64,000 nt of DNA. Source: an uncultured Thermogutta sp. (GTDB taxonomy: Bacteria; Planctomycetota; Planctomycetia; Pirellulales; Thermoguttaceae). The translations under genes were made by a program, and so were the position numbers. Each line of letters opens with the position of its first letter. The stretch's first letter is position 1. Location: NCBI GenBank assembly GCA_937128505.1, contig CAKZMM010000059.1:1-64000 (forward strand). Direction: 5' to 3'. Of the stretch, positions 891 to 55,990 are shown in pieces. The notes below the pieces were generated by a model. It ran no database searches. It worked only from the letters and a program-made list of their open reading frames with translations, and was not told the origin of the DNA.

Positions 891-1080
891 AATCCAACAG
901 CTTCACCTGTTGCCCGCAGGGTCAAGGCGTTCTTGAGCTTGGATTATTGGGGCGTTTTTGATCGCTTTTATCCGCAGAGTCCGATTTAACCGCAGAGTTT
1001 CTGTTCCGACGAGTTTTGTCGCTTGGGAATCCTAAGTTGAGATGGTTCTCATTCTGGGGACATCCTCCACTGAGTGTTTG

Positions 1081-9998: not shown

Positions 9999-10943
9999 CA
10001 CCGGGTAATAGTCAACGGGGTCGTGTGTTACTTCGGAAGGGTACCTCGGCTCATGGGTTTAGACGGTAAATTAGCAGGCAACAAATGAGAATTAAGGCGC
10101 GCAAGGTTGCGGGGTTCGTCGCGGCTGGTGTTGGCTCCGGGGGCGTGGGATTGAACCGTTTCGTGTTGGCTTGCCGGGATTTTTCGGATCAATGAATCCG
10201 GTTGATTTGCTGCGATCTTCCGAATTTATGAAATTTATGAATTCGTGTGGGAGCGATTCGGGACGATCGGGTATGGCAACGAAAGATGAAGGCCTTGACA
10301 GGAAGCGCTGCGAAAGTCGCTTGCATCCACGGATCTTCAGTAGGCAGGATCCGTGAGTGCCAGAAGATTCTTTACCTAAAACAGCTCTCAGACGCCTCTC
10401 CGGCTGGAACAAACGTCTCGGGGATTTTCGGAGACGTCCGGCGGGCTTTCGAGTGGAATGAGGAAAACGTCGCCCCTCCCAGCGGATTCCGGGGCTCGAA
10501 CATGCGGCAAAGTTGGCCCCCAGAGGGCTTTAATCTTTTGTCTATCATCTCTACGGCGGGTTTTTTGTCTATTATCTTCTATCTTTATCTTCTATCTTCA
10601 CGGCGGTCGATCGAGGCACTTCATGCATAGCCACAAGATGCATAGCCACAAGATGTATGGCCACAAGATGCTTAGCCACAAAAGAATGGCCACATGAATT
10701 AACAGTCTCTCGTGAATTAAGTGATACGCCTTCCCAAGCGGATTGCAGCGAATAACACTCGGAGCAAGCGGAGCAGATTGGGGATCTCTGGATCACCCTG
10801 TCGCCCCTTGTCGTGATCGGGGCGTGTGTCACACTTTAAGGCGGCGGAGAATTAAGCACGTTCGAGAGCAAGATTCCGAGGCAAATGGACTATAACCATA
10901 AAAGCAAGCAATCCGCGAAAAGTCTATGAGAAAGGTGATACCA
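9999..10943. other. Gene-free spacer containing a five-copy minisatellite
   Basis: 945 bp without a credible gene. It holds TATCTTCTATCTT-type simple repeats around 10565-10605 and the 15-bp minisatellite at 10623-10697. No promoter could be assigned with confidence. Confidence 0.65.
10623..10697. repeat. 15-bp minisatellite, five tandem copies
   Basis: Units of 15 bp starting at 10623, 10638, 10653, 10668 and 10683. The first two are identical (ATGCATAGCCACAAG) and the rest carry one to four changes. The period is divisible by three, but the surrounding frame has no support as a gene. Confidence 0.9.
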
Positions 10944-11919: not shown

Positions 11920-12930
11920 ATGAACGGAATCCAAGGATCGGCTCGTTTCATTCTCGTGGGCACGGGGCCGTTTGGGGTCCCGGCCTTTCGCCGTTTAATC
12001 GGCGGTCGCCACGCAGTGGTGGCGGTAGTGACTAGCCCGGTGAAAAGTGCAGGTCCGGGCGTGGCTGAGGCAGCTCCGGTGCGGAAATTGGCCCTCGAAC
12101 ACGGTTTGCCGATTCTCGATCCGGCCGATATCAATAGCTCTGAGGCACGGTCGAGGATCGCGGGCTTGTCGCCCGATCTTTTGGTTGTGTGCGACTACGG
12201 TCAGATTCTCTCGGCCGAGACGTTGGCCACTGCGCGGCTTGGCGGCTTGAATTTGCACGCATCCCTCTTGCCAAAATACCGCGGCGCGGCGCCGATTCCC
12301 TGGGCCATTTACCACGGCGAGACGGAAACGGGAGTCAGCGTCATCCACATGACTCCTCAGGTGGATGCAGGACCGGTAATTGCCCAGGTGGCCACGCCCA
12401 TCCATCCAGAGGAAACCGCCGGGCAACTGGAGCAGCGGCTTGCGGAGTTGGGAGCCTCCGTATTGGCGGAGGCAGTCGACCGGGTAATCCGTGGGGAGGC
12501 GCAGCCCATTCCGCAGGATCCTCGGCTGGCTTCAAAGGCTCCCCGTTTGAAAAAAACGGATGGATTGATTGATTGGCGACGCCCGGCGATTGCCATCAAG
12601 AATCAGGTTCGAGCGATGGACCCCTGGCCCAGGGCATGTACGTTTTGGTTTCGGGACAAATCGGGCCCTTTACGTTTGATCCTTGCGCGGGTACAGGCCC
12701 TGGAGACGGGCTTCGAACCGGCGGAGCCGGGGACCATCGTGCATGTCCGGGAGCGGCTCGTCGTGGCGGCGGGGGCGGCATTTGTCGAGTTGTTGCAGAT
12801 CCAACCAGAAGGAAAACGGCTCATGAGTGCCGAGGAATTCCTTCGTGGTTATCGTTTGCGGGTCGGGGATCGACTGGGCACGCCGCCCCAGGAACTTGCG
12901 GCCAAAAATTCCCTTGGGCCATCTGGCTAA
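11920..12930 (+). CDS. fmt: Methionyl-tRNA formyltransferase
   Basis: Transfers a formyl group from 10-formyltetrahydrofolate to initiator Met-tRNA in the cytoplasm. The protein is 336 residues from the ATG at 11920 (the frame is open to 11869). The catalytic triad is visible: Asn111 and His113 in LNLHASLLPKYRGAAPI, and Asp149 in TPQVDAGPVI. The N-terminal Rossmann-like part begins ILVGTGPFGVPAF, as in the family. The C-terminal beta-barrel tRNA-binding domain runs from about residue 215. The SLLP and RGAAPI motifs are textbook for Fmt rather than other formyltransferases. No def gene (peptide deformylase) is adjacent, which is unusual only by comparison with enterobacteria. Confidence 0.94.
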   Translation: MNGIQGSARFILVGTGPFGVPAFRRLIGGRHAVVAVVTSPVKSAGPGVAEAAPVRKLALEHGLPILDPADINSSEARSRIAGLSPDLLVVCDYGQILSAETLATARLGGLNLHASLLPKYRGAAPIPWAIYHGETETGVSVIHMTPQVDAGPVIAQVATPIHPEETAGQLEQRLAELGASVLAEAVDRVIRGEAQPIPQDPRLASKAPRLKKTDGLIDWRRPAIAIKNQVRAMDPWPRACTFWFRDKSGPLRLILARVQALETGFEPAEPGTIVHVRERLVVAAGAAFVELLQIQPEGKRLMSAEEFLRGYRLRVGDRLGTPPQELAAKNSLGPSG

Positions 12931-13000
12931 AGGCATTGAGTCGTTTTGCCGCTTGGTTGAATCGTTTTCCTGGTTGATTGAATTGTTGTTTGCTCAAGCG

Positions 13001-16000
13001 TCATAGGTTGAAATACCGTTGAAAGCGGTGCCGATTCTCTCGGGTGTACATTTCGTATCGCACCATCAGGGAATTCACGCTCGGCAGATCCAGAAGATGG
13101 GCTACGCGGGCCAATTCGGTCGGATCAATCGGCAGCCGGTTTCGCGCTGTAGGGTTGACGAGACGCACGCGGGATTCGAGGGTCCGGAGGAAGCGGTAGC
13201 TTTCGCGGAAGAATTGGGCATCTTCCGCCGGCATATAGCCGCGCTTTTCCAGACACTGCAGGGCCTCGATCGTATGCGGAACGTGAACCTCCGGGTCTTC
13301 CGGCCCATGGCGGAGTTGTAATGCTTGAACAACGAATTCAATATCCACCATACCGCCCGGACCGCGTTTCAAGTTTTCGTTACCCGCCGCCTCCTCCAGC
13401 CGTTGTCGCATGGCAGAAATTTCCCGCAGATCCTTTGGCTGCCATGGACGGCAGAATGCTGCTTCGCGGATTACCTGATGCATACGTTCGGCCATACGCG
13501 CCGAAGCCACCACCGGTCGCGCGCGGCATAAAGCTAAGCGTTCCCAAAGCTGCCCCTCCCCCTTGGTGTAGTAATCGAGGAACTTTTGAATCGATGTGAC
13601 AAGTGGTCCGCTTTTGCCGGTGGGGCGGAGGCGGGCATCGATCTCATACAGGCGACCGTAAGCACTCAAGCGGCTGGTTCTGCGAATGATCCGCTGCGCA
13701 AGCTCGCTAAAGAAATGTTGATTCGTTGTCGACGTGGCCCGGCTCAAGTAGTCGCGCGGTATTGTCTGACCATCGCAGTCGTACAAAAAGACAATATCCA
13801 GATCGCTGCGGTAGGTGAGCTCCGCTCCCCCGAATTTACCCAGGGCCAAAATGATGAGTTCTGCCCGTTGGTCGGAGGATGAGCTTTCTCCCGCCATCGG
13901 GTCCCCGAATTTTTCTAAAAGCCGGTGGTATTCGTGGGCGCATATTTGTTCCAGGCAAACCAGGGCCACGTTGCTCAAGGTTCGCATGCAGGCCACGATA
14001 TCTTCTTTGCCCAAAAGATCGCGCACGCCGGCACGCAGCAATTGATCGTTCTTGAAGCTGTGCAAAATCGGATCGAGGTCTTCCGCCGCTCGGCACAGCT
14101 CCGTTAATGTATCCCGGAGCCATTGCGGGCTGGGCAGCTTGTCGAGGACCAAGCTATCCATGAGGCTGTCGATCATGCCGGGGTTACTGGTCAGAAGACC
14201 GCAAAGATAAGGGCTGTAGGCACAAAGCTCCACAAACAGCCGCAGCGAAGGAGGATTGAAACTGAAAAGTTCCCAAAGAAGCCCTCTTCCGCCCAAGGAT
14301 CCACTGACCGTCTCCAAGTTCACGAGAGTGGCGTCGGGGTCAGGGGTTTCGGAAACGGCTCGCAACAGTTGTGGGGCGATCGAAGCCAGAAAAAGCCTCG
14401 CCCGGCGCGTGGACAGGAAGCTTGCGCGCTCCTCGGCAAGCGCCATAAGATTTCGATAAGCCTCGGAAATATTTCGAAACCCATATTTACCCAAAACCAA
14501 CTCGATTCTTTCCTGAGGCGGATCGGGATCCAAGACGAGATTCACCTCCGCCTCCGTCTCCGCATCGTCGGGAAACGCGTGGTGGAGCAGGTGATGAAGG
14601 ATTCGCTGATTCTGGGTTGTTCGTCGGGAGTACTCCGCTTCGAATGCGTCCTTCGCTGTTTGACCTTCTTTGTCTGCAAAACCCATGCGGATGGCAAGCT
14701 TCCGCAAACCTTCCGGCTCGCTCGGAAGGCTATGGGTTTGTAGATCGAACATGATTTGGAGGCGGTGCTCGAGCTTGCGCAAAAAGCAGTAGTTTCCTGC
14801 AAGAAGAGCCCTTTCTTGCTCGGTCAAACAGCCAGCGCTGGCCAACTGAGCAATCGCCTCGAGCGTGTTGCCAGAACGAACCGCGCGAAGCTCCGGCCCA
14901 TGAAGCAGCTGCAAAAATTGAATGACAAACTCGATATCGCGGATGCCACCGCGGCCGGTTTTTACATTGGTTGTCTCACCCCCTGCTTGTTGAGTTTGCT
15001 GCTCAATGCGCCGCTTGAGGGCTTTAATGCCGATAATATCTGCCTGGCTTAAGTACCGCCGGTAGATCCAAGATTCCATCTGCTCTAAGAATCGCTGGCC
15101 CAACTCCAAACTTCCGGCTGCCGGTCGGGCCTTGATGTACGCCTGTCGCTCCCAGGTTCGACCACGCATGTCGTAGTATCGCAGAGCAGCCGGAATGCTC
15201 ACGGCAAGCGGGCCGTGACGACCCTCCGGGCGTAAACGCATATCGACCCGATATGCTACTCCCAAGTCGGTCGGCTCGGTCACGAAGCGTATGATCTCTG
15301 TCGCCAACCGCTGGAAAAACTCGTGGTTCGAAGGGCTTCGAGGGCCGTCGCAGTGTCCCTCGTCTTCGTAGAGGAAGACTAAGTCGATATCGCTCGAGTA
15401 ATTAAGCTCCAGTCCCCCCAGCTTTCCCATAGCTAAGATTACGAAGCGAGCGACCTCACCATTTGGTAATCGCGGCGAACCCCAAAGTTGTACGAGCTTT
15501 CGCCACGCCGCTCGAAAAGCTCCTTCCAGAATTGCATCCGCCACATAGGAAATCTGCCGCGTGACCATTTGCACCGGCAAGTGGCAGACAATATCGCCGT
15601 AAGCGATCCTCAGCGTTTCCCGGCGCTTAAAGCGGCGCAAAGCTCGCAACACATCTTGTTCGTGCTCGAGCGCTTCAATCTCGGCCACCAACTCGTCGAC
15701 CAGCACCTCGCGTCTGTAAGAGGTACCCTGGCTCAAGCGAACCAGTTCGAAAGCCTCTGGATCCAACGTCAACAAGTCGCTCAGGTGTTGACTGGCGGAA
15801 AAAACTTGAATCAGCGTACGAAGTGCCTCCGGATCCCGTTGGAACAAGGCGGCTAAAGAAAGTGGGTTGCGGACGCGGGCAAAAAATCGCTCCAGATTAT
15901 TTAATGCCATATCCGCGTCGGCACAACGGGGCAAATACTCCTGGAGTTGCTGGCAGATCTCTGCCAGCAGGTCCGTCGGCACGCCGTATCGCCAAAGGCT

Positions 16001-16156
16001 GACGAGATTGGTGTAGGCGCGATGAGCGTCGGCTGTTCCCAAGGTTCTCAGAAACTGTTGGGCCAATTCCTCGTCGCCGAGGTAACGTTCAAGCAGCTCC
16101 GGCGAAATGGTGCCGGGAATTGCCGAGGAGCTTTGAGTACCAGGAGAGCCTTCCAT
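13001..16156 (-). CDS. glnE: Bifunctional glutamine synthetase adenylyltransferase/deadenylylase
   Basis: GlnE switches glutamine synthetase off and on by adding and removing AMP, under control of PII. The 1051-residue length is close to the usual 950-1000. Both nucleotidyltransferase domains are intact: KLGGLELNYSSDIDLVFLY near residue 250 (N-terminal, deadenylylation) and KFGGAELTYRSDLDIVFLYD near residue 770 (C-terminal, adenylylation). Each is followed by a helical GlnD-type domain (RGGIRDIEFVIQFLQLLHG and RGPGGMVDIEFVVQALQLRHG regions). The start is ATG 16156; a GTG at 16165 is also in frame. It begins 11 bp after the miaB stop on the same strand, so the two are likely cotranscribed. glnA and glnB are not in the window. 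Confidence 0.95.
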   Translation of the reverse strand: MEGSPGTQSSSAIPGTISPELLERYLGDEELAQQFLRTLGTADAHRAYTNLVSLWRYGVPTDLLAEICQQLQEYLPRCADADMALNNLERFFARVRNPLSLAALFQRDPEALRTLIQVFSASQHLSDLLTLDPEAFELVRLSQGTSYRREVLVDELVAEIEALEHEQDVLRALRRFKRRETLRIAYGDIVCHLPVQMVTRQISYVADAILEGAFRAAWRKLVQLWGSPRLPNGEVARFVILAMGKLGGLELNYSSDIDLVFLYEDEGHCDGPRSPSNHEFFQRLATEIIRFVTEPTDLGVAYRVDMRLRPEGRHGPLAVSIPAALRYYDMRGRTWERQAYIKARPAAGSLELGQRFLEQMESWIYRRYLSQADIIGIKALKRRIEQQTQQAGGETTNVKTGRGGIRDIEFVIQFLQLLHGPELRAVRSGNTLEAIAQLASAGCLTEQERALLAGNYCFLRKLEHRLQIMFDLQTHSLPSEPEGLRKLAIRMGFADKEGQTAKDAFEAEYSRRTTQNQRILHHLLHHAFPDDAETEAEVNLVLDPDPPQERIELVLGKYGFRNISEAYRNLMALAEERASFLSTRRARLFLASIAPQLLRAVSETPDPDATLVNLETVSGSLGGRGLLWELFSFNPPSLRLFVELCAYSPYLCGLLTSNPGMIDSLMDSLVLDKLPSPQWLRDTLTELCRAAEDLDPILHSFKNDQLLRAGVRDLLGKEDIVACMRTLSNVALVCLEQICAHEYHRLLEKFGDPMAGESSSSDQRAELIILALGKFGGAELTYRSDLDIVFLYDCDGQTIPRDYLSRATSTTNQHFFSELAQRIIRRTSRLSAYGRLYEIDARLRPTGKSGPLVTSIQKFLDYYTKGEGQLWERLALCRARPVVASARMAERMHQVIREAAFCRPWQPKDLREISAMRQRLEEAAGNENLKRGPGGMVDIEFVVQALQLRHGPEDPEVHVPHTIEALQCLEKRGYMPAEDAQFFRESYRFLRTLESRVRLVNPTARNRLPIDPTELARVAHLLDLPSVNSLMVRYEMYTRENRHRFQRYFNL

Positions 16157-16167
16157 GCTGACCACTT

Positions 16168-17610
16168 CTATGAGGTAGCAGCGACCGCGGGGAGATCGAT
16201 CCGACGCCCAAACAACGTCACGGCACTTGCTTTATCGATCCTGACCCAAATGAATTCCCCGGCCCAATGACTTCGTCCGGGAAACACGACAATCCGATCG
16301 CACCGGGTTCGCCCCGTCATTTGGAGAGGTTCTAAGGGGATTTTACTGCTATTTACAGGCTGATTGAGCACGACTAAATCCGGGCGACTGAGTTTACTGG
16401 GGCCTTCCACCAAAACTTCAACCGTCTTGCCCACGAAGCGCTGATTATCTTCCTCGCTAATGGCGTTTTGCACGGCAAGAAGCCGAGCATTACGCTCGCG
16501 CTTGACCGGTTCGGATACATCGTCGGTATATAGCTCCGCTGCCTTCGTACCGGGCCGAGGGCTGTATTTGAAGATGAAACTATTTTTGAAACGAGCCCAA
16601 CGCACCAGCTCCACCGTCTTTTCGAAATCTTCCTCGGTTTCGCCGCAAAACCCAACGATGAAATCGCTTGTGATCGCGGCGTCCGGGATTGCCTCCTGAA
16701 TGCGGCATACCATCTCCCGATACTCGGCGACCGTAAACCCACGATGCATTCGGGCCAGCACCGCATCCGACCCGCTTTGCGCCGGGACATGGAGATACGG
16801 ACAGACTTTGGGAAGGTCGCGGACCGCCTGGATCAAATCGTCCGTCATATGCCGCGGGTGATTGGTCACGAATTTGATGCGGTGAATTCCCTCCACATCC
16901 GCCACCCGCACCAATAAATCGGACAACCTGATGGCACGGCCCGTCGAGCGGTCCACATAACTATTGACCGTTTGCCCTAAAAGGGTGACCTCCACGCAGC
17001 CTTGGTCGACAAGTTGCCGAATCTCCTGCTCGATATCGGCGACCGGGCGACTTTGTTCCGGTCCTCTCACCTGGGGGACGACACAGAAGGTGCAAAATTT
17101 GTCACAACCTCGCATAATCCGGACCATGGCTTGCTGCCGCAAAGGCCGTACGTCCGCGCGGCGTATCGGATCGAAAGTGGGGAAACTTTCGATAACAGCG
17201 CGGCGAGGTCCGCCCCGGCGGTCAAGACCCGTTTCCACGATTGGCCCGCCACCCTGTTCGATCGTTCCAATCGCGGCCACCAAACGGTGAAGTTGACCCG
17301 GACCAAGCACAATATCCACGTGCTCGGCACGCCGCAAGAGCCGATCGCCTTCCTTCTGGGCCATGCAGCCAAGCACGCCGATAATTCGCCCCGGACGCTG
17401 TGTCTTCGTGTGCTTCAATCTGCCCAGAGCGCTATAAACTTTATCTTCCGCATGTTGGCGGACGCTGCATGAATTAAACAGAATGACATCCGCCTTTCGG
17501 GGGGTATCCACAATCTGGTAACCAGCCTCGAGCAAACTGGCTTTGACCAGCTCGCTGTCGAGGACGTTCATCTGACATCCGAATGTTTCAATAAATACGC
17601 TTTTTCCCAT
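16168..17610 (-). CDS. miaB: tRNA-2-methylthio-N6-dimethylallyladenosine synthase
   Basis: MiaB is a radical-SAM methylthiotransferase that adds a methylthio group to i6A37 of tRNAs reading codons that begin with U. From the ATG at 17610 it has 480 residues. The three N-terminal cysteines for the auxiliary cluster are Cys12 (FGCQMN), Cys48 (FNSCSVRQ) and Cys82 (GVLGCMAQ). The radical-SAM CxxxCxxC is Cys169/173/176 in RGCDKFCTFC. A C-terminal TRAM RNA-binding domain follows (GKTVEVLVEGPSK onward). The frame extends 35 codons upstream to 17715, but MGKSVFIETFGCQMN matches the family start. The glnE start follows almost immediately, indicating a two-gene transcript. Confidence 0.94.
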   Translation of the reverse strand: MGKSVFIETFGCQMNVLDSELVKASLLEAGYQIVDTPRKADVILFNSCSVRQHAEDKVYSALGRLKHTKTQRPGRIIGVLGCMAQKEGDRLLRRAEHVDIVLGPGQLHRLVAAIGTIEQGGGPIVETGLDRRGGPRRAVIESFPTFDPIRRADVRPLRQQAMVRIMRGCDKFCTFCVVPQVRGPEQSRPVADIEQEIRQLVDQGCVEVTLLGQTVNSYVDRSTGRAIRLSDLLVRVADVEGIHRIKFVTNHPRHMTDDLIQAVRDLPKVCPYLHVPAQSGSDAVLARMHRGFTVAEYREMVCRIQEAIPDAAITSDFIVGFCGETEEDFEKTVELVRWARFKNSFIFKYSPRPGTKAAELYTDDVSEPVKRERNARLLAVQNAISEEDNQRFVGKTVEVLVEGPSKLSRPDLVVLNQPVNSSKIPLEPLQMTGRTRCDRIVVFPGRSHWAGEFIWVRIDKASAVTLFGRRIDLPAVAATS

Positions 17611-22044: not shown

Positions 22045-22633
22045 TTTTAGAACCGAGGGTCTTAATTCTCAGATTAACAGTCATCATGTCAAAGGAAGTC
22101 GGAAATCCTTAGGCAGCCGTTTAGTTTCCACGAATCATCGGGGGATTTTCGGGAAAAGCGGGCTGTGGAAACCCGTTTAAACCGAAGCTGATAGTTTAAT
22201 CGGACAAACTCGATTATTGTAGTGATTAATTGTTGAATTCTCGATGAAGCGGGTGGTAACGTCCAGGAGTCATGCTTCGACGCACGCCGCGTGCCACGTA
22301 CCCCAGCGGTGTCATTCCCTCTCGAATTTTAATTTGGAGGTATTCCTAGGTCGGAAGCCAACCCGGATCGCCCCTTTAAACTCGTTTCGTTCGGGAAGGA
22401 AATTCGGGAGGCAAATCGTCGTATTTAGGGCCTTTCGACTATCAGGCGAGGATGCAACCCGAGCAAAGCAAGGAAATCCTCGTATCTAGGGCCTTTCGGC
22501 CGGTTCTAATCCTTAAAGCTTGATGCCCCATTGTTGACAAATGCCGCCTCCGAGATGTAGCCTGAAAGTGGGCCGCCTGATGAAAACTAGAGGGCTGCAT
22601 GATCTCAGAGGGGGTTCGCACGGGAGGTGTGCC
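22045..22633. other. Spacer with a 61-bp-periodic duplication
   Basis: 589 bp between divergent genes. A 26-bp unit sharing TAGGGCCTTTCG occurs at 22413-22438 and 22474-22499, exactly 61 bp apart. No gene is supported. Confidence 0.6.
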
Positions 22634-25397: not shown

Positions 25398-25621
25398 CGA
25401 TGTGACCTCACGATTGGATTACCGTTTTTTGCGATGTTTATTGTTCCCGGTTATCTTGAGGGAGCAATCCTTCGGAAGACGGTTAGGAATTGAGCGCATT
25501 AATCTCCACAATTCTCGTGAGTCAGGCTCAGCCAAATGCAGTTTCATCGGACGCACGGTTCTTCGAGAATCTGAAAGGCTTCAAATTCCCGACCAAACGG
25601 GGAGCAACAGGAGAGGACTTG

Positions 25622-26317
25622 ATGATACCGTACACCTACGAATTCCCTCGACCGGCGGTCACGGTAGATTGCATTGTACAAAGTTTTGACGGCTCGCAAA
25701 TCTGGGTTCTCTTGATCCGAAGGGCTCACGACCCATTTGCCGGCTGCTGGGCACTCCCGGGCGGCTTCATTGAAATGGGTGAGACGCTGGTAGCCTCCGC
25801 TCGACGCGAGCTCTTTGAGGAGACCAACTTATGCGTGGAGGAGTTACGACAATTTCGGACTTTCGGTGACCCCGGCCGGGACCCACGGGGGCGTACCGTT
25901 ACGATTGTGTTTTTCGGTTGGGTCCCCTGGGAAGTACGCGAGCCGAAAGCTGCCGACGATGCCCGCGAAGCCGCGTGGCTTCCTCTGACAGGACTTCCTG
26001 AGCTTGCCTTTGATCATGCTCAGGTGCTGAAAGAGTTTCGCGCTTTCTTACGGCAGTTGGCATCCACGGAGCCGCTCGGCAAAGATGCACTTCCCAGAAC
26101 CTTCGAGCTCCCTGTGTTGGTGCGTTTTTACGAAGCGATTTTCGGTTGCGGGCGTCGAGCCCGGCAGGTGGTTCGCACCTTGAGGTCTTTAGGAATCATT
26201 CGGGCCGCACCGGGGTCATCAAAAGCTTTGGCCAGGTCCAAGCAGCTTTACCGTTTCGACCTTCGTAAGTACCGCCAATATCAAATAAAAGGCTTTGGCG
26301 CGGTGATCAAGCCCTGA
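25622..26317 (+). CDS. NUDIX hydrolase with C-terminal winged-helix-like extension
   Basis: 231 residues. The Nudix box is complete from Gly48 (GFIEMGETLVASARREL then FEETNL): Gly48, Glu54, Arg62-Glu63 and Glu66-Glu67 fit Gx5Ex7REUxEE. This indicates a hydrolase of nucleoside diphosphates linked to another moiety, such as ADP-ribose. About 85 further residues (from LPRTFELPVLVRFYEAIF) look like the helix-turn-helix tail seen in ADP-ribose-related NUDIX proteins and in NrtR regulators. With an intact Nudix box it is more likely an enzyme. The start is the ATG at 25622, which has AGGAG eight bases upstream. The frame is open to 25490, but that part has no domain. Confidence 0.86.
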   Translation: MIPYTYEFPRPAVTVDCIVQSFDGSQIWVLLIRRAHDPFAGCWALPGGFIEMGETLVASARRELFEETNLCVEELRQFRTFGDPGRDPRGRTVTIVFFGWVPWEVREPKAADDAREAAWLPLTGLPELAFDHAQVLKEFRAFLRQLASTEPLGKDALPRTFELPVLVRFYEAIFGCGRRARQVVRTLRSLGIIRAAPGSSKALARSKQLYRFDLRKYRQYQIKGFGAVIKP

Positions 26318-26367: not shown

Positions 26368-26517
26368 AATGCTCCCGCGCGCAGGACGCCAAAACTCACG
26401 TTGGGAGTCGGGATGTCTTCGCCTATGAAATGCTCCCGCGCGCACGACGGCAAAACGCAAGCGGGTCCCGAATTCCGTAACCCCTTGAAAATGTTCCCGC
26501 GCGCACGACGCCAAAAC
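26368..26517. CRISPR. CRISPR-like mini-array: three 28-bp repeats, two 33-bp spacers
   Basis: Near-identical 28-bp copies lie at 26368-26395, 26429-26456 and 26490-26517, each differing from the consensus by one base. They contain CTCCCGCGCGCA and end CAAAAC. The period is exactly 61 bp. The two 33-bp intervals (26396-26428, 26457-26489) agree at only about 10 of 33 aligned positions, close to chance. 61 is not divisible by three, so this is not a coding repeat. On the minus strand each repeat would begin GTTTTG. The repeat length and period resemble type I-E-size arrays, but no cas gene is adjacent. It may be a degenerate array or an unrelated periodic binding site. Confidence 0.5.
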
Positions 26518-26619
26518 AGTTTGGAGGAAATATCTAAGAGGAAATATCTAATATGTAAAAAGTTGCGGTCTGGTCGGAGGAACTGTGGGAGGTCTTGCCG
26601 CGCAAGGGATCGGCGACCT

Positions 26620-28095
26620 TTAACCGGAGGAGGCAACCTGCCGAATCTCCCGAGCCAGCTCTTCGATCGCTTCTGACTTCAGATATGCCCGGATCAATTC
26701 CTCGATTTTCGTGAACATTTGATCAATTCGTTTCTGGGCGACTGGGTCCCGAGCCACTAAGCGCTTTCGATTCAGTGCGAGATAACGCCGGAAATCATCC
26801 GGTGTTTGCAGCCGCCGTAACTCTTCTAATAGGCTGCGAGCACGGTCGTATTCTCGATTGTCGAGATGTCGCCGAATCCGCGCAGTGAGAATCTGTCGCC
26901 GAGTTACCAGGTCCACAAGTTCGTCTTGAAGGCCGAGGATCATTGCCTCAGCCTCCAACCGTTCTTCATCCCCGGCGATAAGTGCCGTTACCTCCGGTTC
27001 CAAACCAGCGACAATGGGCAAACGAGCGAGCGGGACTTGCCCGTGCTTGACCCAAAGGATCGCCAAGGAATTATGGAGAGTCCGAATTTCCAGACTTCCC
27101 TCCGCATCCGTATTTCCCAGGAACTCTGTCGCCTTATTCCCCGGCCCCTGGGCATAGATGGAATAGCCTGCTAGCCGGCGATCCGGCTGCCGTTGGTCGC
27201 GCAGCAGAAGCCGGGTCGGCTTTTCCGTCGGCTTTACGGCAATCACTAGTTGCTCGATACGGCCACGTCGCCGAGCACTCAACGGGGTACGGAGACCTGT
27301 GTGCAGCTTGGCGGCGACGGTAGCCCCGCGGAGCTCCGATATCGCGAAGTAAGTAAACGGGATGGACTGAATCCGCCGTGGTTTTCCCGAGCGGTCATTG
27401 TACCGAAGAAAGATCCGGAAAATGCTTTCCGGCGAGGCCCAGCGACAGCTCGGGTCTCGAGGTACAAGCGCGCCGGCGCGAAATCTTAGAATAGCTTCCT
27501 TCGTTTCTAAGTCTAAGGATTCGATCTGTGCACTGGGCGAAAAAGCGGCCCAAATGGCCTCGAAAACAGCCTGTGCCAGAAAGCGAGGGGACTCAGCCCA
27601 ACGTTCTGCAATGCTTCCCCAGCTTTGACTGCGCACATCCAGTTCAATAGCCCGAGCGAGGACTCCCCGCGGTCGCGAGCTGCAAATCCCAAGCAAGATG
27701 ACTTTGTCCGGGGCCTCCAGCGCCGACCAATGACTCGGCCAGATTTCCGTCGCCGGAGGCTGCCCATCCAAGACGGATTGCCGCAGCTTGCCTTCGGCAG
27801 TTTTGATTTCGTAGGACCATGCCCCCCCGATCAGTCGGTCAAGCTCCTCTGTGACCAGCCGATGCACCGCCTGCTCCGAAAGGCGGCTGAACCGATCCGT
27901 TTGTAAAGCCAATTGGACCTCCACCCGGTAGGGCATGAACTCCCAAGGAACCTGCCCTGAGGCCACACCCGCAAGCGCGCATAGAAGACTGAGATAGATG
28001 CAGACGGCTTTGACCGGAGCTCCCGGGCAGACCGCATCCGCGCCACCCGACGGCGAAGGCAGAAAGGCCAAATTACCGAGGCCGTACCCCGTCAT
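26620..28095 (-). CDS. Secreted protein of unknown function with helical C-terminus
   Basis: 491 residues from the ATG at 28095. A hydrophobic segment at about residues 29-48 (VCIYLSLLCALAGVASG) looks like a signal peptide preceded by an unusually long N-region. The frame continues upstream to 28224, but that part contains a 22-bp tandem duplication (28107-28150) typical of leader DNA. The middle is beta-rich, while the last 130 residues are charged and helical (many Arg/Glu, for example RARSLLEELRRLQ). No family recognised. It lies downstream of the solute-binding-protein gene on the same strand at about 525 bp distance and may belong to the same planctomycete gene series. Confidence 0.72.
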   Translation of the reverse strand: MTGYGLGNLAFLPSPSGGADAVCPGAPVKAVCIYLSLLCALAGVASGQVPWEFMPYRVEVQLALQTDRFSRLSEQAVHRLVTEELDRLIGGAWSYEIKTAEGKLRQSVLDGQPPATEIWPSHWSALEAPDKVILLGICSSRPRGVLARAIELDVRSQSWGSIAERWAESPRFLAQAVFEAIWAAFSPSAQIESLDLETKEAILRFRAGALVPRDPSCRWASPESIFRIFLRYNDRSGKPRRIQSIPFTYFAISELRGATVAAKLHTGLRTPLSARRRGRIEQLVIAVKPTEKPTRLLLRDQRQPDRRLAGYSIYAQGPGNKATEFLGNTDAEGSLEIRTLHNSLAILWVKHGQVPLARLPIVAGLEPEVTALIAGDEERLEAEAMILGLQDELVDLVTRRQILTARIRRHLDNREYDRARSLLEELRRLQTPDDFRRYLALNRKRLVARDPVAQKRIDQMFTKIEELIRAYLKSEAIEELAREIRQVASSG

Positions 28096-28621
28096 TGGTT
28101 GATCACTTTCTCCGAGTTTACGCTCGAGTTTCTCCGCGTTTATGCTCGCATGATTTGATACTTGTACTCCGTTAATGGCACGCGTTCGATGCCGGCGGAG
28201 TCCCGTCTTTACACCCCCCTTCAATTCGCCGTTGTTTTGGCTTGATCGATTGGGCCGACCGGGAGTGCCCGCATTTGGGGCGGCGATGTCAAGTTCACTT
28301 GTCCAGATGCTATTCCCTGACGGCTAACCGGTTAAAATCCCATGGCATCGCCGAGAGAATACCCATTTGCAATGAATCGGCAATTCAGCCCCTTTCAATA
28401 GATGTGGCTACGAATAAACGATGCAAAACGCGAGGATAATTCTGGCACGAATTGAGACGACATTGCATTTACCATGAAAAACCGCGGGTATGGATAACTC
28501 CATGCCTCCATGGATAATTCCACCCCATAAGCCGCAACTACCAAAAGCTTGGAGTTCAGGAGGCCCGCATGAGTTTTTCTCTCTCCAAGTGCTCCGAAGC
28601 TGCCGGTTCAGTAATCGGTGC
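28096..28621. other. Spacer with duplicated leader segments
   Basis: 526 bp. A 22-bp unit is duplicated in tandem (28107-28128, 28129-28150) and a 12-bp ATGGATAAYTCC is repeated 20 bp apart (28490, 28510). No gene is evident. Confidence 0.6.
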
Positions 28622-39850: not shown

Positions 39851-41530
39851 CTATTCTACGAACTCGGCGTCAGGACGGATCGTCAAATACCATTCCCGCC
39901 ATTGCCGGATTGCCTCCTGAAGTTGCGCCGGGGTGGCGTTATCCGGTGGGCCACCCAAGTCGAAGCGGCGACTTAACCGCCGCAACGCATCCCTGGCCCC
40001 CCGAACGATCGTTGGATCCGCATCACTTAGAGCGAAAATTAAGGTTGGAACATAATCCAAATTTCCGCTCCGGGCCATGGCGCGAATGGCAGCGAGGCGG
40101 GCCTCCACCGCATTCGAGCCGGCAAGCTCCAAAAGCTTTTGCCCTTGTTTGGAGAGGATCGCACCGGCTTGCTCGGCCGGAAGTTCGGTTAGTAGCTCCA
40201 AGGCCGCCAGCTGCTCCGGATCTTCATCCTTTTGAAGGGCTTCCATCAGCTTCTCCAGATTGGCAAGCTCGGGCTTTGCCACGACGTTTCCGCCAATAAT
40301 GGCCACCTGGCTGGTGTTCCTCGGCAATCCTCGGCCTCCCACCAGGGTGCCTTCCCCGAAGCTTTTCACCCGTTCTACACTCTTCAAAGTGGAGCGAACC
40401 AAAAACAGCACCCCAAAAGCCGTATCGGGCACCGGGGTACACTCGTGCTCCCAACTGCCGTCTTCCCGCTGCGTTTCTCTCAGGAATCGCACCCCATCGT
40501 CATACCAGGTGGGAGCTTCCTTCGGTTTTCCTTCGACAAGCTCCCTGTAGGTCCAATATCGCTCCAAGGCGTAGAGATAGTAGTAACGAAAACGATTCAC
40601 GTCGATTCGGTAATTGGCAGCTTGCCACGCCTTACCGCGATTGATTGCCGCCTGGACAAGCCGCGGATCGACCGCAACTCGCGTCTCCGCCCTTCCTGTA
40701 GGATCTAGTCGCTGGACCTCACGAACAATCGGGGGAAGACCCGACTCCCGCTCCTCCTTCTGGGCTGAAAGCCCCATTAAGTCCGCCAGCACGTACAAAC
40801 TGGCCAGGCCGGCCGTGGCCAAACTATGCCGAATTTCTTTTTGCGGAATCAGGTTGAAATCTGGCGATACTTCCCCCTGGTAACCGAAGGCACCTGAAGG
40901 GTCCTGAGTTCGAATCAGCCACATCGTCACCCCGGTAAGCATCGCACTAGGGATTGGAATGCCGGCTCGCACTGCCTCCCACATGGCCAGCACGGCGTAT
41001 TGAGTCATCGATGTATCGCCTGTGCCCCGCCCGTCGTAACCCCAGCCCCCATGGGGTTTTTGCACCGCCCGTAAAAACGCCAAATAACCTTCGATTTCTG
41101 GTCGATAACGATTGGCGTCCAAGTTGACGAGGAAAACCACCGCAAGTCCCGCACTGTAAATATCGACTATGGGTGACCAACGATCACCAACCGGCCGGGG
41201 AACGTTTTTTCGTACCACGTCGATGGCTCCGACAACGACGGGGTGATTCGCATCGTAACCGGCCTTCATGAACGCCAGTCCCACCAATGCATGGGCACCG
41301 ACCCGCGGATCATCAGCTGCCTTCTTTTCCAGAAACGCAAGCGCCCGGGCCACGATCCGCTGCACCTCCGGGCTATCCGGCGTGTAAGCCTGAGCCAGTC
41401 GCGCCCACCCTTCGGAAAGGAAACTCAAAGCGATCAACCATTTGAAGCAAATTCCAAACCAGCCTGGGGTTAGCCGCGTTAACAAGCCCCAAACGCCGCC
41501 GGGCAGCTTTTTCGTTGTGACTTGCCTCAT
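39851..41530 (-). CDS. Secreted prenyltransferase/squalene-oxidase repeat protein with HEAT-like C-terminus
   Basis: 559 residues. An N-terminal hydrophobic segment ending in WARLAQA (about residue 48) is a signal peptide. Residues about 55-400 form an alpha/alpha toroid with squalene-cyclase-type repeats: QKPHGGWGYDGRGTGDTSMTQYAVLAMW, TQDPSGAFGYQG and TQREDGSWEHECTPVPDTAFGVLFL. The DxDD catalytic motif of cyclases is absent, so it is probably a binding scaffold, not a cyclase. The last 120 residues have HEAT-like helices (AALELLTELPAEQAGAILSKQ, ARLAAIRAMARSGN, VRGARDALRRLS). An AGAGG precedes the ATG. It is first in the minus-strand series leading to exbB/exbD, a combination frequent in Planctomycetes. 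Confidence 0.88.
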   Translation of the reverse strand: MRQVTTKKLPGGVWGLLTRLTPGWFGICFKWLIALSFLSEGWARLAQAYTPDSPEVQRIVARALAFLEKKAADDPRVGAHALVGLAFMKAGYDANHPVVVGAIDVVRKNVPRPVGDRWSPIVDIYSAGLAVVFLVNLDANRYRPEIEGYLAFLRAVQKPHGGWGYDGRGTGDTSMTQYAVLAMWEAVRAGIPIPSAMLTGVTMWLIRTQDPSGAFGYQGEVSPDFNLIPQKEIRHSLATAGLASLYVLADLMGLSAQKEERESGLPPIVREVQRLDPTGRAETRVAVDPRLVQAAINRGKAWQAANYRIDVNRFRYYYLYALERYWTYRELVEGKPKEAPTWYDDGVRFLRETQREDGSWEHECTPVPDTAFGVLFLVRSTLKSVERVKSFGEGTLVGGRGLPRNTSQVAIIGGNVVAKPELANLEKLMEALQKDEDPEQLAALELLTELPAEQAGAILSKQGQKLLELAGSNAVEARLAAIRAMARSGNLDYVPTLIFALSDADPTIVRGARDALRRLSRRFDLGGPPDNATPAQLQEAIRQWREWYLTIRPDAEFVE

Positions 41531-42367
41531 AGAAGACCTCTAAACTCCAAAAGCTAGGCAGTTCGGAAGTTAGGGCACACGGTCGCAAGTAAAACCACTC
41601 AAGCCGATTTAAGCCCGTGCAATCGGCTATCGGGAAGAGTCTTCGTCAGTCTTCGTCATTCGGTGACACGCATTCCCTCGACGCCCCAACATGTCTATCC
41701 GAGGCACCGGCCCGCCACAAGCCCGACCTCCGCCGAGCATGAACGTTAAAGAGGATAAAAGAGAATCCGCTGGAGTCAAATACAACTCAACTTTATGAGA
41801 ACGTTACTTCTGCATGAACGTCCCGCTTAGCAAAGCAATGGCTCGGCTCCAGAGTGTTGTCGGTTTCCGCTCGCTTCTTCTTCGTGGGTTTGCCCTTAAT
41901 TTAGGAGCGACATGGTAATCGCACTGTGAATCAATCCTCGATAAGCAGAGACTAACTATTTGAGCGGATCGAAGAAAGCAGCCGACTCTCGTACTCTTTC
42001 TCATTATATTCGCTAAACCGCATGAGGTTGACCACCGTGGTGGACGCGGTTTAGCTGGCATTAAAGGTAGCTGCTCGCCGGAACTTACGGAAATTTCACT
42101 CGCGGTCCGGGCTGCGGGCTCCAATGATAAGCTGATATTATGAGTTCATATCTCCGTGGCCGCAATTTGTGACCCAAGACCATATCCCCATCATTCTCTG
42201 CAATCCGGGTAGTTCTGTTAGAATGGAGAGCCAGCATAATGTAGATAATCTAAGTGGTGTAATAGCTTTGTGGAATTTGGTTTCGAAAAATGGCTGAAAA
42301 TAACTAGGACTTCAAAGTTGATCAGGAATTCACAAATTCACAATTGATGGTGTAAGGTTACCTCCTC
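41531..42367. other. Divergent spacer without a supported gene
   Basis: 837 bp between divergent genes. A perfect 10-bp duplication (GTCTTCGTCA twice near 41638-41658) is present. The minus-strand frame at 41804-42124 has no recognisable features. Promoters for both flanking genes should lie here but are not clear. Confidence 0.55.
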
Positions 42368-43507
42368 ATGGAAGATCCGAGACTTCATAGACTTGCTAAT
42401 GTTTTGGTAGAGTACTCCACGGCCGTGCAACCCGGGGATTTGGTCCGAATTGCCGGACCCCCAGTGGCCCGAGAGTTATTGGTAGCCATTTATCAAGCGG
42501 TGTTGGAAGCCGGTGGGCATCCTCTCGTGCAAATGGTCCCCGATGAATGTGAAGAACTGAAGCTCCGTTTGGGCACTGAGGAGCAACTGAGATTTGAAGA
42601 TCCTATCGCGATGTACACGGTGGAGCGCATCGACGTTTCGATTGGGGTTTTTGGAGCGGATAACACAAAGGCGCTCAGCCAGATTGACCCGAGGCGGCAG
42701 GCTCTCCTAAGTCAAGCCTCCAAGCGGCGAATGGCCCGATTTCTGGAGCGGGCCAGGGCTGGTGAGCTCCGCTGGGTTGGAACGCAATTCCCCTGCCACT
42801 CCGCGGCGCAAGATGTGCAAATGTCACTGAGTGCCTACGAACGATTTGTCTTTCGGGCGGGTCTGCTGCATTTGGAGGAGCCCGTCTCAGCGTGGCGGCT
42901 CATTAGCCAGAGGCAGCAGCGGGTAGTGGACTTCTTAAACAGTTGCCATGAGGTCCGACTTGTTACACCCGAAGGAACAGATTTGCGGCTTGAGGTGGGC
43001 GGGCGAAAATGGATTAATTGCGATGGCAAAGAGAATTTTCCGGATGGAGAGGTGTTTACGGGGCCCGTCGAGGACTCTGCGGAGGGGTTGGTGGTCGTCA
43101 GTTTCCCTACCAACTATGGCGGAAGGCTGGTCGACGGAATCCGGTTGCGTTTTCGCCAGGGAGAGGTTGTAGAAGCATCGGCCGATCGGGGCCAAGATTT
43201 TCTTATCGCGATGCTTGAACAAGACGACGGGGCACGACGCATCGGTGAAATCGCCCTCGGCACCAATTATGCGATCACACGTTACACCCAGAATACCTTA
43301 TTCGATGAGAAAATTGGCGGCACCTTTCATCTGGCCTTAGGAAGCGCTTACCCGGAGACAGGCGCCACGAATCAGTCGGGGCTTCATTGGGATTTGGTCT
43401 GCGATCTTCGAACGGGTGGTAAAGTGTTTGCAGATGGACAATTGATTTCTCGAGACGGTCGATTTGTCGATCCTACGTGGCCTCAGCCCGAACACATGCC
43501 GACCTAA
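42368..43507 (+). CDS. M29-family (thermophilic-type) aminopeptidase
   Basis: 379 residues, the standard length for M29 aminopeptidases such as AmpS and thermophilic aminopeptidase T, cytoplasmic exopeptidases with a two-metal centre. The C-terminal catalytic domain shows all the ligand motifs: FPDGEVFTGPVEDSAEG (Glu), RRIGEIALGTN (Glu), FDEKIGGTFHLALGSAYPE (His and Tyr region) and QSGLHWDLVCDLR (His and Asp). The N-terminal domain begins RLHRLANVLVEYSTAVQPGDLV, also typical. AAGGTT about ten bases upstream is the probable ribosome site. It stands alone, divergent from the prenyltransferase-repeat gene. Confidence 0.93.
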   Translation: MEDPRLHRLANVLVEYSTAVQPGDLVRIAGPPVARELLVAIYQAVLEAGGHPLVQMVPDECEELKLRLGTEEQLRFEDPIAMYTVERIDVSIGVFGADNTKALSQIDPRRQALLSQASKRRMARFLERARAGELRWVGTQFPCHSAAQDVQMSLSAYERFVFRAGLLHLEEPVSAWRLISQRQQRVVDFLNSCHEVRLVTPEGTDLRLEVGGRKWINCDGKENFPDGEVFTGPVEDSAEGLVVVSFPTNYGGRLVDGIRLRFRQGEVVEASADRGQDFLIAMLEQDDGARRIGEIALGTNYAITRYTQNTLFDEKIGGTFHLALGSAYPETGATNQSGLHWDLVCDLRTGGKVFADGQLISRDGRFVDPTWPQPEHMPT

Positions 43508-44016
43508 CCGCTTTAACTTGCGTGTTCGGTCATTTAGCAGGGCGTGGCTTCGGCCGGGGTCAATTTGGGGCCTAAAACACCGCGTGCCCGGCGAATATGC
43601 TCTTGTGTTCATTTCCCGGATTAGACGACGATTGGAATTAGGCGATCATCGCCCCCCGGTGAATCAAGTCACCTTGCTTTAAAAGGTAGGATACGTCGGG
43701 AAGGACGGGAGTATTGGCGTTAGGATAAAGCTGTTTTGAGGCGAATCGCGTAAAGAGGTCGAAATCGTCCCCTTTGGTTAAAGCATTCAACGTAAAGGCG
43801 AATGATGGTGCCACGGGTTCGAGCTTCTTTGGCCGAATAACGACTTTTGCGACGGCGACCCTTGCCACGGCTTCAAATCTCGAGATTTCGTCGGCATTTG
43901 TGGGGGTTAATCGGGGATGCCCATGTTTGAGCTACGCGGCGGATAAGCGTTGGTGTTGGCTGCCTGAGGGAAAGGTGATCTCCGCGTTTTTTGGCCACAA
44001 AAGGTGACGCAATTCG
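43508..44016. other. Spacer without a supported gene
   Basis: 509 bp between the aminopeptidase and cmk. Small frames on both strands (43638-43868 minus, 43774-44007 plus) overlap and have no recognisable domain. An AGGTGA just before cmk is its ribosome site. Confidence 0.5.
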
Positions 44017-44682
44017 ATGGTTATAACAATTGATGGGCCGGCAGGGGCTGGCAAAAGTACGGTTGCCAGGCTTCTCGCGAAAGAGCTTGGCTTCGAGTAT
44101 TTGGACACCGGGGCCATGTATCGAGCCGTAGCCTTGGCCGGATTGAGAGCCGGAATTGATTTTCAGGATTCAAACCAATTAGCGGAACTAGCAAGAAATC
44201 TTCGGATCGAATTTCGGGACAATTGCGTTTTCCTGAACGGTGAGGACATCACCCAAGAATTGCGGACACCGGCGGTGACTCGTCTGACGCAGTTTGCGGC
44301 GGATAATCACGGGGTAAGGCAGCATCTTATCGAGCTTCAGCGTCGATTTGCCTTGGGCAGAAATGTGGTTACGGAAGGGCGGGACCAAGGGTCGCTTGTT
44401 TTCCCCGATGCCGCGTGGAAGTTTTATCTCACTGCCTCGCCCGAGGAGCGTGCCCGGCGGCGAGTCCGCGAGTATCAGGCTATGGGAAAGGAGGCAGACT
44501 TTCAAAGTGTTCTTGGCGAGATATTATCGCGAGACCGAAAAGATTCGGAGCGCGAATTCGGCGGCTTGGTTTGCCCCCCTGGTGCCCTCGAGGTCAATAC
44601 AGACGGCAAAACGGTTGAACAGGTGGTGGGCGAACTTCGATCGATCATCACCGGAAGTAAGCCGAGGGAGTTCTCTCCATAA
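44017..44682 (+). CDS. cmk: Cytidylate kinase
   Basis: 221 residues; phosphorylates CMP and dCMP with ATP in the cytoplasm. The P-loop is at residues 7-14 (GPAGAGKS). The CMP-binding segment LDTGAMYRAVAL follows at about 29-40, and VVTEGRDQGSLVFPDA is the conserved region that reads GRDIGTVVFP in most relatives. The lid is ERARRRVREYQAMG, followed by RDRKDSERE. The Gln in GRDQG instead of Ile is a feature I associate with planctomycete Cmk. AGGTGA nine bases upstream marks the start. plsC follows on the same strand, a common pairing, but with a 740-bp gap here. Confidence 0.95.
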   Translation: MVITIDGPAGAGKSTVARLLAKELGFEYLDTGAMYRAVALAGLRAGIDFQDSNQLAELARNLRIEFRDNCVFLNGEDITQELRTPAVTRLTQFAADNHGVRQHLIELQRRFALGRNVVTEGRDQGSLVFPDAAWKFYLTASPEERARRRVREYQAMGKEADFQSVLGEILSRDRKDSEREFGGLVCPPGALEVNTDGKTVEQVVGELRSIITGSKPREFSP

Positions 44683-45425
44683 TTGAGCTGGAAGACGCTG
44701 GGTGATTCGGATCCGAAGTTGCTGGGCAGCAAAAGGTTGGGTGGGTCGCCCGTCGGATACTGAACTTCGTTTCCGAAAGCATGTTTGCCTGCGGTCGAGG
44801 ATAAAGGGGCGTTAAACCCGCGGGATTGGGTTCCCGAGCGCCGGGCACTGGGCCGGTCGTCGTGTCCGAGTACCGCTTGTTCCGCACGTTTAAGCGACAT
44901 TAAGGGTCGTTCTGCTCGGTTAGAGGAAAAGGTTGGCGTCTTCGCGGGTAACCGCGGCTTTTCTGCACGCAGGTTCGCATCGTGCAAGTTTTTTCTCTCT
45001 GGCGGGCGTGCCCTGAAGGCTTGCGTACGGGAGATTCATCGGGCAGGCCCCTCTCGTGTGAAGCACCTCCCCCGGCGGTACTCTAAAGGGGAGTATCTCG
45101 GAGCTTTTCATGAGTCGAATTCTTAAGTGGGCTCTTTGCGTGCGCTGAGTCCGCCTTGTATTTTAAAGCTTGTATGTTGGTAGATTAGCTTCCGGCCTTT
45201 GAAGAAGCCGGTGACGAAAGTTGGAGTCTATCCCTTGTCGCGGGAAGTGTTCCCGTATATCCGACTGGAGGAAGAGAGCGAAGAGGGCGTGTGTCTTGCA
45301 GTGTTGGACCCGCGCCTCGGTCAGTATGAGTCAATGCGGCGTAATTTATGGTTTTTCGGAATTTTGGCAACATGATGCCGATTCGCGATAGTTCCGTTGG
45401 CGTATCGAACGACGTCCAGAGTACC
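44683..45425. other. Spacer between cmk and plsC
   Basis: About 740 bp. No gene is convincing. The plsC frame is open to 45348, so up to 78 bp of this spacer could be coding. No long repeat seen. Confidence 0.5.
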
Positions 45426-46205
45426 ATGACTAAGTCTGAAAAGGCGTCGAAAATCGTAGACCGGCAAGGGAAACGAATTCAACCATCGCAATTTTGGTAC
45501 GAGTTTTTCCGGCCCTTTGTACGAGTGGCTTGGTCGCTTTTGTACTGGGTTCGCTTTAGTGGGCAGCAAAACATTCCCGAGGCCGGGGCGGTCCTAGTCG
45601 TGGCCAATCATCAGAGTCATTTTGATCCGCCTCTTGTGGGGGCGGGAATCAAACGTCAAATGCGTTATTTTGCCCGGGCCAGTTTATTCCGGTTTGGCCC
45701 TTTTCGTTGGTTGATCTCATCCTTAGGAGCCATTCCTGTGGATGTGGAAGGTTCACCGGTCAGCGGTGTGCGGGAAAGCCTGCGGCAATTGAAAGAAGGT
45801 CACATGCTTTTGATTTTTCCGGAGGGGAGTCGCACGTGGGACGGGGAAATCGGCCCGTTTCGGCCAGGATTCGCTCTGCTTGCTCGAAAAAGCGGTGCGG
45901 TCGTCCTCCCGGTGGCTGTGGAGGGGGCGTATCACGCGTGGCCCCGATGGCGCGCCTTTCCGCGATTGGGAATGATGCACGTTCATTATTGCAGACCTCT
46001 CCTGCCGGAGGAAATACGCCAAATGGAGGACCAGGTACTGCTTGAGGAAGTGCGCCGGCGGATTTCCGAAGCGCAGTCACAGCTTCGAGGGCGGCCCATT
46101 CTGCGGGATTGGCATCGCTTGAGTCGACAGCTCGGGTGGAGCCGTATTCCGCCGGCGGTGGCTCGCCACCTGGCTTCCGAGCATGAGCGCAACGGAGCAC
46201 CGTGA
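45426..46205 (+). CDS. plsC: 1-acyl-sn-glycerol-3-phosphate acyltransferase
   Basis: PlsC-type acyltransferase that makes phosphatidic acid from lysophosphatidate at the cytoplasmic membrane. From ATG 45426 it has 259 residues. The HX4D catalytic motif is His62 to Asp67 in NHQSHFDP. Motif III is FPEGSR with the acceptor-binding Glu. RASLFRFGPFRWLISSLGAIPVD provides the conserved arginine block. A hydrophobic segment near residues 31-44 should bind the membrane. The C-terminal 45 residues are basic. The start is uncertain: ATG pairs at 45372-45377 and an earlier frame start at 45348 exist without a strong ribosome site. It follows cmk on the same strand. Confidence 0.9.
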   Translation: MTKSEKASKIVDRQGKRIQPSQFWYEFFRPFVRVAWSLLYWVRFSGQQNIPEAGAVLVVANHQSHFDPPLVGAGIKRQMRYFARASLFRFGPFRWLISSLGAIPVDVEGSPVSGVRESLRQLKEGHMLLIFPEGSRTWDGEIGPFRPGFALLARKSGAVVLPVAVEGAYHAWPRWRAFPRLGMMHVHYCRPLLPEEIRQMEDQVLLEEVRRRISEAQSQLRGRPILRDWHRLSRQLGWSRIPPAVARHLASEHERNGAP

Positions 46206-46713
46206 CTTCCGGAGGCAAACTCAACGCCGACGTCGGAACCGGCCCCCTAATTCCCGGAGAGCTTCCGAAGCAAATTCCGGAGTCTTGCGAGGTTTGATTT
46301 CGCTTTCTTCGGGTCTGAATTGTCCAGGAAGGTCGGATTAATTTAAAGAATCTGGATTAATTTAAAGAATCCGTGGTAAGCCCGACTGAAGAGGGTTGCG
46401 GCTTAAATGGGCTTGTGCATACGGCCCCGCGTTTGACAGGGATTAAATCCAGCTTCGCTTTTTAATCGACGCAAACATTAAAGGACTTTCAAGAGCACGG
46501 GGTTTATTCTGCTTCCACCACGTTTCCCGCTTGATACGAGGTTTCTTGCTTGTTATGTCGGAGGTTATCGGAGAGCGTGGTATCGGGGCGCTGAATAGGC
46601 AAGGTGATTTGTCATGAAGTGCGTGGCGTAATTTCTTCTAAACTGCGAAGAAAACGGGCAATTTCTTCTAGAGCGCAGGGAAGACGGGAGGAAAGCTTTT
46701 AGGAGATTTCCAG
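46206..46713. other. Spacer with two tandem duplications
   Basis: 508 bp. A 19-bp unit is duplicated (46335-46353, 46354-46372: GGATTAATTTAAAGAAT core). A 30-bp unit is duplicated (46630-46659, 46660-46689: AATTTCTTCTA core). The AGGAG before the next gene lies at the right end. Confidence 0.7.
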
Positions 46714-50013: not shown

Positions 50014-50762
50014 AAAGGTGCGGTCCTCTGGTACACGATTCGGCAGGGCGAAAGATCATTAACGGGGTGAGGGATCCCGGAGCCCCGTGTCTTCGCGAAG
50101 GCTTCTTCTCGCTGTTAATGGCTCGACTTTTTGCTGCTATTTTCGGTGAGATTCTTTCCCGCTGTTATTGGCGAGATTTTTCCCGGAAGCTACGGATCTT
50201 GCTCAATGTGCCGAAGAAGCACGGGGCTTCCTAACGGTAGCTCCCGAATTCATCGGAACACCGTTGAAAAATGTCGACTCTCAAAATCGGGCTGCCCGGC
50301 AACGAAATTAGCCCCGTTATTCATGGGAATACCTTTGAAACATTTCGACCCACGGGGTTTGCGGGCTGATTCCTTTTCAGTCCGGCGACCCCTATTCAAT
50401 CCGGCGACTCCTATCGTGCCGCAAAAGATGCTTATCCTCCCCTTGCCCTCCCAGAAAAAGGAGCAGCTTTCATTCTCCAGATCTGAAAAACGAGCAGCTT
50501 TCGTTGCTGGCGGGTAGGGTCGACAATCGAGTAGCGATTGTGCGTAATTTGCCGGCAAAGCCCCAGATTTGGGTTTCACCCTTTGCGGAAACTCCGCCAG
50601 GGAAACTCTGCTTCCTAATTAGGGAATGATCCTGCCGCCGATGAGGCAAATAGGAGGAAGTGGAAAGTTAGGAGGCTTTCCTCTTAATCCTATTTTGTGG
50701 GCCACAGTATTTTATTCTTGCTGTGTGGACCCTCGTATTCCCTTTATGTCAGCGAGGCGGTC
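50014..50762. other. Spacer with multiple imperfect repeats
   Basis: 749 bp. GCTGTTATTGGCGAGATTTTT-like units start at 50111, 50133 and 50161. A 30-bp unit recurs 71 bp apart (50248, 50319). A TCCGGCGACYCCTAT unit is repeated in tandem near 50383-50413. The frame at 50131-50517 spans these repeats and is probably not a gene. Confidence 0.65.
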
Positions 50763-55157: not shown

Positions 55158-55222
55158 ATATGGGCAAGTCTGGACAACCAGGTTAGCGTGGCATCATTTG
55201 CGGGCGGAGGATTTCGGAGATC

Positions 55223-55972: not shown

Positions 55973-55990
55973 AGGGTCGGAGAGGTATTC

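Follow-up and report, generated by a model that had tools for sequence, protein, structure and literature searches.

A 61-bp-period mini-array in a hot-spring planctomycete is one of many scattered CRISPR-like arrays, probably generated by off-target type I-E spacer integration

The window analyzed here, a stretch of 64,000 nucleotides from the 5.58-Mb genome of a hot-spring planctomycete (Thermoguttaceae-like), carries three near-identical 28-bp units in the gap between two convergent genes. No cas genes adjoin these units. The array, its neighbours and the two other repeats of the same period in the window are the following:

25490 to 26317, + strand: NUDIX protein gene, upstream neighbour, followed on its 3′ side by the 302-bp gap that contains the window array
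26368 to 26395, − strand: repeat copy 1, 28 bp, private substitution C17G (+ strand numbering); the shared motif scores higher on the − strand
26396 to 26428, no strand: spacer 1, 33 bp, no phage match, 21-bp core not in IMG/VR
26429 to 26456, − strand: repeat copy 2, 28 bp, private substitution C22G; motif log-odds 17.0 bits, rank 3 among 38 loci
26457 to 26489, no strand: spacer 2, 33 bp, no phage match, 21-bp core not in IMG/VR
26490 to 26517, − strand: repeat copy 3, 28 bp, private substitution C5T
26620 to 28224, − strand: 534-aa ORF, downstream neighbour, convergent, without Pfam family
803 to 891, + strand: likely second ectopic array, 28-bp units at 803 to 830 and 864 to 891, 33-bp spacer, motif log-odds 11.9
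22413 to 22498, + strand: possible third lag-61 pair, 22413 to 22437 versus 22474 to 22498 (23/25 identical), motif log-odds 3.9 (weak)

The three units start at positions 26368, 26429 and 26490, with a period of exactly 61 bp. Their consensus is AATGCTCCCGCGCGCACGACGCCAAAAC; each pair of units is identical at 26 of 28 positions, each copy has one private substitution and the two 33-bp spacers agree at 10 of 33 positions. The best lag-61 triple of the window reaches 26/28, compared to 14/28 for the best one in 50 shuffled windows, and a scan of the other lags from 30 to 129 found no triple of at least 20/28. Coordinates, shuffles and lag scan therefore confirm what a sequence-only reading of this DNA had described, i.e., a strictly periodic three-copy repeat with about 10/33 agreement between its spacers and one private substitution per copy, and the CRISPR-like architecture that it proposed is borne out by these 28-bp repeats and unrelated 33-bp spacers. 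That reading had named two outcomes that would speak against a CRISPR array. The first, a repeat dispersed elsewhere in the genome, was not seen, the repeat being found (with up to three mismatches) solely at these three sites in the 5.58 Mb. The second, conservation of the spacers in relatives, was not seen in two congeners, in which neither the repeats nor the neighbouring gene could be found beside the Nudix homologue. An Rfam scan of the window gave no match. The likely second array of the window (803 to 891) lies inside an ORF according to a crude ORF map.

A search for Cas1 in the genome revealed two loci. One of them, on contig C102, belongs to a complete type I-E set (Cas3, Cse1, Cse2, Cas7, Cas5, Cas6e, Cas1e and Cas2). 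Its Cas1 is a Cas1e by family assignment, shows the conserved catalytic motifs LRG.EG.RVR and GF.H...D..D when aligned, and has its nearest relatives within the genome collection in Thermoguttaceae MAGs. The same contig carries the canonical I-E array (positions 19 to 168, cut by the contig end), made of the 28-bp repeat GGATCATCCCTGCGTGTGCAGGGAGAAC and 33-bp spacers with a period of 61 bp. Since the canonical array is also 28 + 33 = 61, the window array has the exact I-E geometry with a different repeat. The suspicion of a type I array, raised from the letters alone, was thus well founded: both the geometry and an internal motif described below match the complete type I-E system of the host, whose operon lies on another contig.

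The window also contains, at 53892 to 62489, a type III-D-like operon (Csx10-like, Csx7-like RAMPs, TIGR03986-like and a short Cas10-like protein), all of these assignments scoring below curated cut-offs. The sequence-only reading had pointed to this operon as lacking its own array; indeed, neither Cas1 nor an array for it was seen within the window, but nothing links it to the window array. An assignment of the window array to this operon, about 27 kb away, is ruled out by the 28/33 geometry, which fits type I-E.

Instead of a lone decaying orphan, as had first been proposed, the window array turned out to belong to a numerous set of scattered arrays, in which each locus has a repeat of its own. 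Pairs of CCGCGCG located 61 bp apart gave 33 matches compared to three in a reversed control, and reading them revealed further mini-arrays. An unbiased scan for ungapped repeats in 0.52 Mb (lags 30 to 130) found 36 places at lag 61 and a mean of 1.4 at the other lags; when extended to 0.88 Mb, it found 63 segments at lag 61 versus a mean of 4 at the other lags, with exactly 28 bp as the median length of the duplication. On contigs that had not been used before (0.24 Mb), 12 lag-61 segments were found for about one expected. In total, 44 loci including the canonical one (about 43 non-canonical) were identified in the 1.12 Mb sampled, i.e., about 40 loci per Mb. This extrapolates to roughly 200 loci genome-wide, a rough figure since some of the sampled contigs were chosen because they contained matches; the window array is probably one among some two hundred very small CRISPR-like arrays in this genome.

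These loci share their geometry and not their sequence. Inserts are 33 bp long for 70 of the 78 spacers, and both repeats and spacers differ from locus to locus. At several loci the repeats are perfectly identical internally, as expected of recent events, and the outer sequences are unrelated between loci. Many loci have two units and some have three to eight, several of the latter showing an identity that drops away from a fresh pair. One locus (L038, contig C108, piece 40001 to 60000, positions 2168 to 2500) has at least six units, with identical repeats at one end and a divergence that increases step by step in the direction of the other, which is what polarised growth would give. Most loci are intergenic, only 11 of 34 lying inside ORFs compared to 77% expected. 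Furthermore, a lag-61 array is present within 400 bp of 10 of the 58 contig ends examined (C1, C4, C5, C6, C8, C13, C15, C18, C54 and C102) compared to 0.9 expected; perhaps strain variation in the arrays breaks the assembly.

A motif search from random starts in the 38 non-canonical loci, the canonical repeat being left out of the training set, converged on c..tttCCC.tgtGcGCGGGGaGG..ag, with a total log-odds of 451 compared to a null maximum of 248. The canonical repeat scores 14.5 bits against this motif, the best register being exactly its own; a 2-base shift within the palindrome gives 13.2 bits and the next best register on that strand 0.9. On the previously unused contigs, the average score was 8.6 bits for lag-61 repeats compared to −1.3 for repeats at other lags (p = 5e-7). 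A stiff pattern for a canonical-like stem gave no match. No conserved leader was found across the 38 loci, the information content of the flanks being at background outside the 28 bp; therefore, no leader, mobile element or carrier element is common to these loci.

Taken together, these data make it probable that the window array is a neo-CRISPR, i.e., a locus generated by off-target spacer integration by the type I-E Cas1-Cas2 of the host. This reading is based on the geometry, the lag-61 excess, the in-register motif and the unshared flanks, together with the presence of an intact I-E operon and the distribution among relatives. A fixed 33-bp insert, a 28-bp duplication of a native-like site and unrelated flanks are what off-target activity of a type I-E Cas1-Cas2 predicts. 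The protospacer of Escherichia coli is 33 bp long, and integration outside arrays was obtained in vitro with purified Cas1-Cas2 (PMC10011333); when overexpressed, Cas1-Cas2 also integrates in vivo at non-array genomic sites (Nivala et al. 2018, as reported in PMC11788318 and PMC9456107).

According to the proposed mechanism, the integrase would recognize, in the chromosome, a site similar to the native repeat (a pyrimidine-rich TCCC, a GC-alternating centre and a GGG half), located between two convergent genes in the case of the window array. A 33-bp prespacer would then be inserted and the fixed staggered attack would duplicate the 28-bp site, generating a site-spacer-site structure with a period of 61 bp. 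Reuse of the new site would lead to three copies and two spacers, each copy gaining its substitution afterwards. The same process would have occurred at many further sites, mostly intergenic, the local sequence being kept each time as the repeat. As neither an empty site nor a protospacer was found, the integration event at the window site is one that we infer, as are the catalysis by Cas1-Cas2 and the direction of growth; any crRNA function of these loci is presumptive.

The distribution among relatives is consistent with this origin. Among the 60 genomes searched, Cse1 is found in the three members of the genus and outside it in only three. The two congeners that carry type I-E have, respectively, 4 and 2 to 3 lag-61 matches counted as non-canonical in samples of 177 and 191 kb. 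One of the matches of congener G002 counted in this way is its canonical array registered apart, and two of its four listed matches belong to that array. Three relatives devoid of I-E have no lag-61 locus in 396 kb. However, two I-E carriers from other genera do not have scattered loci either, with large canonical arrays and, over 341 kb, only two matches, both weak and AT-rich. The comparison of these three groups indicates that the scatter is tied to I-E and yet apparently special to this genus. An absence of IHF was considered as a cause; HU/IHF-family genes are present in all genomes examined. Gene flanks did not lead to any empty site (a single 28-mer) in the congeners, the loci tried being not alignable because they are too diverged outside genes.

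The spacers may be of foreign origin. Neither window spacer matched a protospacer among phages, plasmids or IMG/VR, where viruses of such hosts are poorly sampled. When all spacers were compared as a set with the sampled pieces of the genome, 121 matches were obtained, little more than the 97 per shuffled set, those listed being words of 13 to 21 bp.

In a stronger version of this scenario, distributed integration would be the normal mode of adaptation in the genus, with an integrase working without a dedicated leader and a memory spread over hundreds of growing mini-arrays. The excess of arrays at contig ends could then reflect population turnover. We consider this version doubtful.

Among the other explanations, the one that best survives, although unlikely, is that ordinary arrays (duplicated, fragmented or repeatedly acquired) left the scattered arrays behind as decayed remnants, the repeats having drifted after loss of function. 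Several arrays of four to eight units do diverge increasingly toward one end, like old arrays, and the single private change of each window repeat would also fit drift. However, descent from one ancestor predicts that repeats differ as much within as between loci, whereas many loci are identical inside and unrelated to each other. Furthermore, the loci have no leader or flank in common, and the canonical repeat (with up to three mismatches) is confined to the canonical array in this genome.

It is quite improbable that the mini-arrays are domesticated intergenic regulatory elements, such as CreTA-like antitoxin RNAs or crRNA-like guides for Cascade. Their intergenic bias would agree with such a role but is equally explained by purifying selection against gene disruption. 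A degenerate mini-array with a 61-bp period is found upstream of cas3, at a distance of about 800 bp (L012, contig C102, positions 10250 to 10450); it is a candidate regulatory mini-array, and a regulatory role of single loci of this kind is possible. In one of its orientations, the window repeat forms a hairpin of −10.7 kcal/mol (z −1.76), which is weak beside the canonical repeat (z −3.7). Moreover, spacers and repeats are different at each locus, and the best matches of the window spacers in the surrounding 6 kb (18 and 19 of 33) do not exceed the shuffled mean of 19, so no nearby target was found.

Even less credit can be given to a dispersed palindromic intergenic element unrelated to CRISPR and phased at 61 bp, for example sites bound by a nucleoid protein or by a regulator. 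The GC-rich, partly palindromic core and the intergenic position would suit it, but such an element would share more sequence between than within loci and would not carry unrelated 33-bp inserts; furthermore, such loci are absent from the three sampled relatives devoid of I-E, the period equals an I-E repeat plus spacer and the motif picks the I-E repeat in register. Finally, the first reading of the window array alone as the orphan of a lost or foreign CRISPR system is extremely improbable: its repeat is unique in the genome and no cas genes adjoin it, but by its period, its unit length and its motif score of 17.0 bits it belongs with the genome-wide family, and no separate origin has to be invoked.

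Off-target integration by the type I-E Cas1-Cas2 of the host, the preferred reading, has several known counterparts. Like the neo-CRISPRs obtained in E. coli (Nivala et al. 2018), the present loci associate a type I-E Cas1-Cas2 with off-array integration at native-like sites and with site duplication. Unlike these, which were seen under overexpression of Cas1-Cas2, they occur naturally, with a density of about 40 loci per Mb sampled, and growth has brought many of them to three to eight units. The window array shares with the canonical array of its host the 28-bp repeats, the 33-bp spacers, the 61-bp period and the internal motif in the same register, but differs from it by its repeat, its weaker hairpin and the lack of a shared leader-like flank and of adjacent cas genes. 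The mini-arrays of CreTA and other CRISPR-like RNAs (PMC9458426) are also ectopic degenerate repeats located off-array in a Cascade-bearing genome; in contrast to them, the window array has no self-complementary target nearby, no toxin gene was identified and its spacers and repeats are locus-specific. In the ectopic acquisition at CRISPR3 of Streptococcus thermophilus (PMC7999890), the adaptation machinery likewise integrates at a wrong position, but these events take place inside a CRISPR array, whereas the window array is at a non-CRISPR chromosomal site.

The interest lies in the genome-wide set more than in the window array alone. Off-target integration is known from overexpression in E. 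coli, and its scale in a natural genome appears to be new. In 2018, Nivala, Shipman and Church reportedly also listed a few natural candidates, in Yersinia pestis and Sulfolobus islandicus. So far, work on the origin of arrays and on the rate at which Cas1-Cas2 integrates into the genome of its own host has relied mostly on enzymes that were overexpressed or purified. A natural genome with a dense off-target record offers dozens of sites from which the specificity of the integrase can be read, and its congeners allow rates to be compared. With such an origin, the scattered loci would document, in nature, the way in which new CRISPR loci may arise. It should also be emphasized that a small orphan array is not necessarily what is left of a lost system and can be a new locus due to an integrase encoded elsewhere in the genome. 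Programs for array detection that demand several units and near-identical repeats would probably overlook the majority of the scattered loci.

Some additional observations concern the surroundings of these loci. On contig C102 (L012), an ORF located directly after cas2 (positions 234 to 1055, − strand) has a DnaQ-exonuclease-like DIETTGL motif and no NCBIfam match; it possibly encodes a prespacer-trimming partner. The second Cas1 gene adjoins a reverse-transcriptase-like ORF on contig C122 (L013, positions 12814 to 15486); the same contig carries, at about 16102 to 16284, an array of 36- to 37-bp repeats ending with ATTGAAAC, and type III-like genes seem to be present on it. Directly after the third repeat of the window array, positions 26524 to 26551 consist of an exact 14-bp tandem duplication, GAGGAAATATCTAA.
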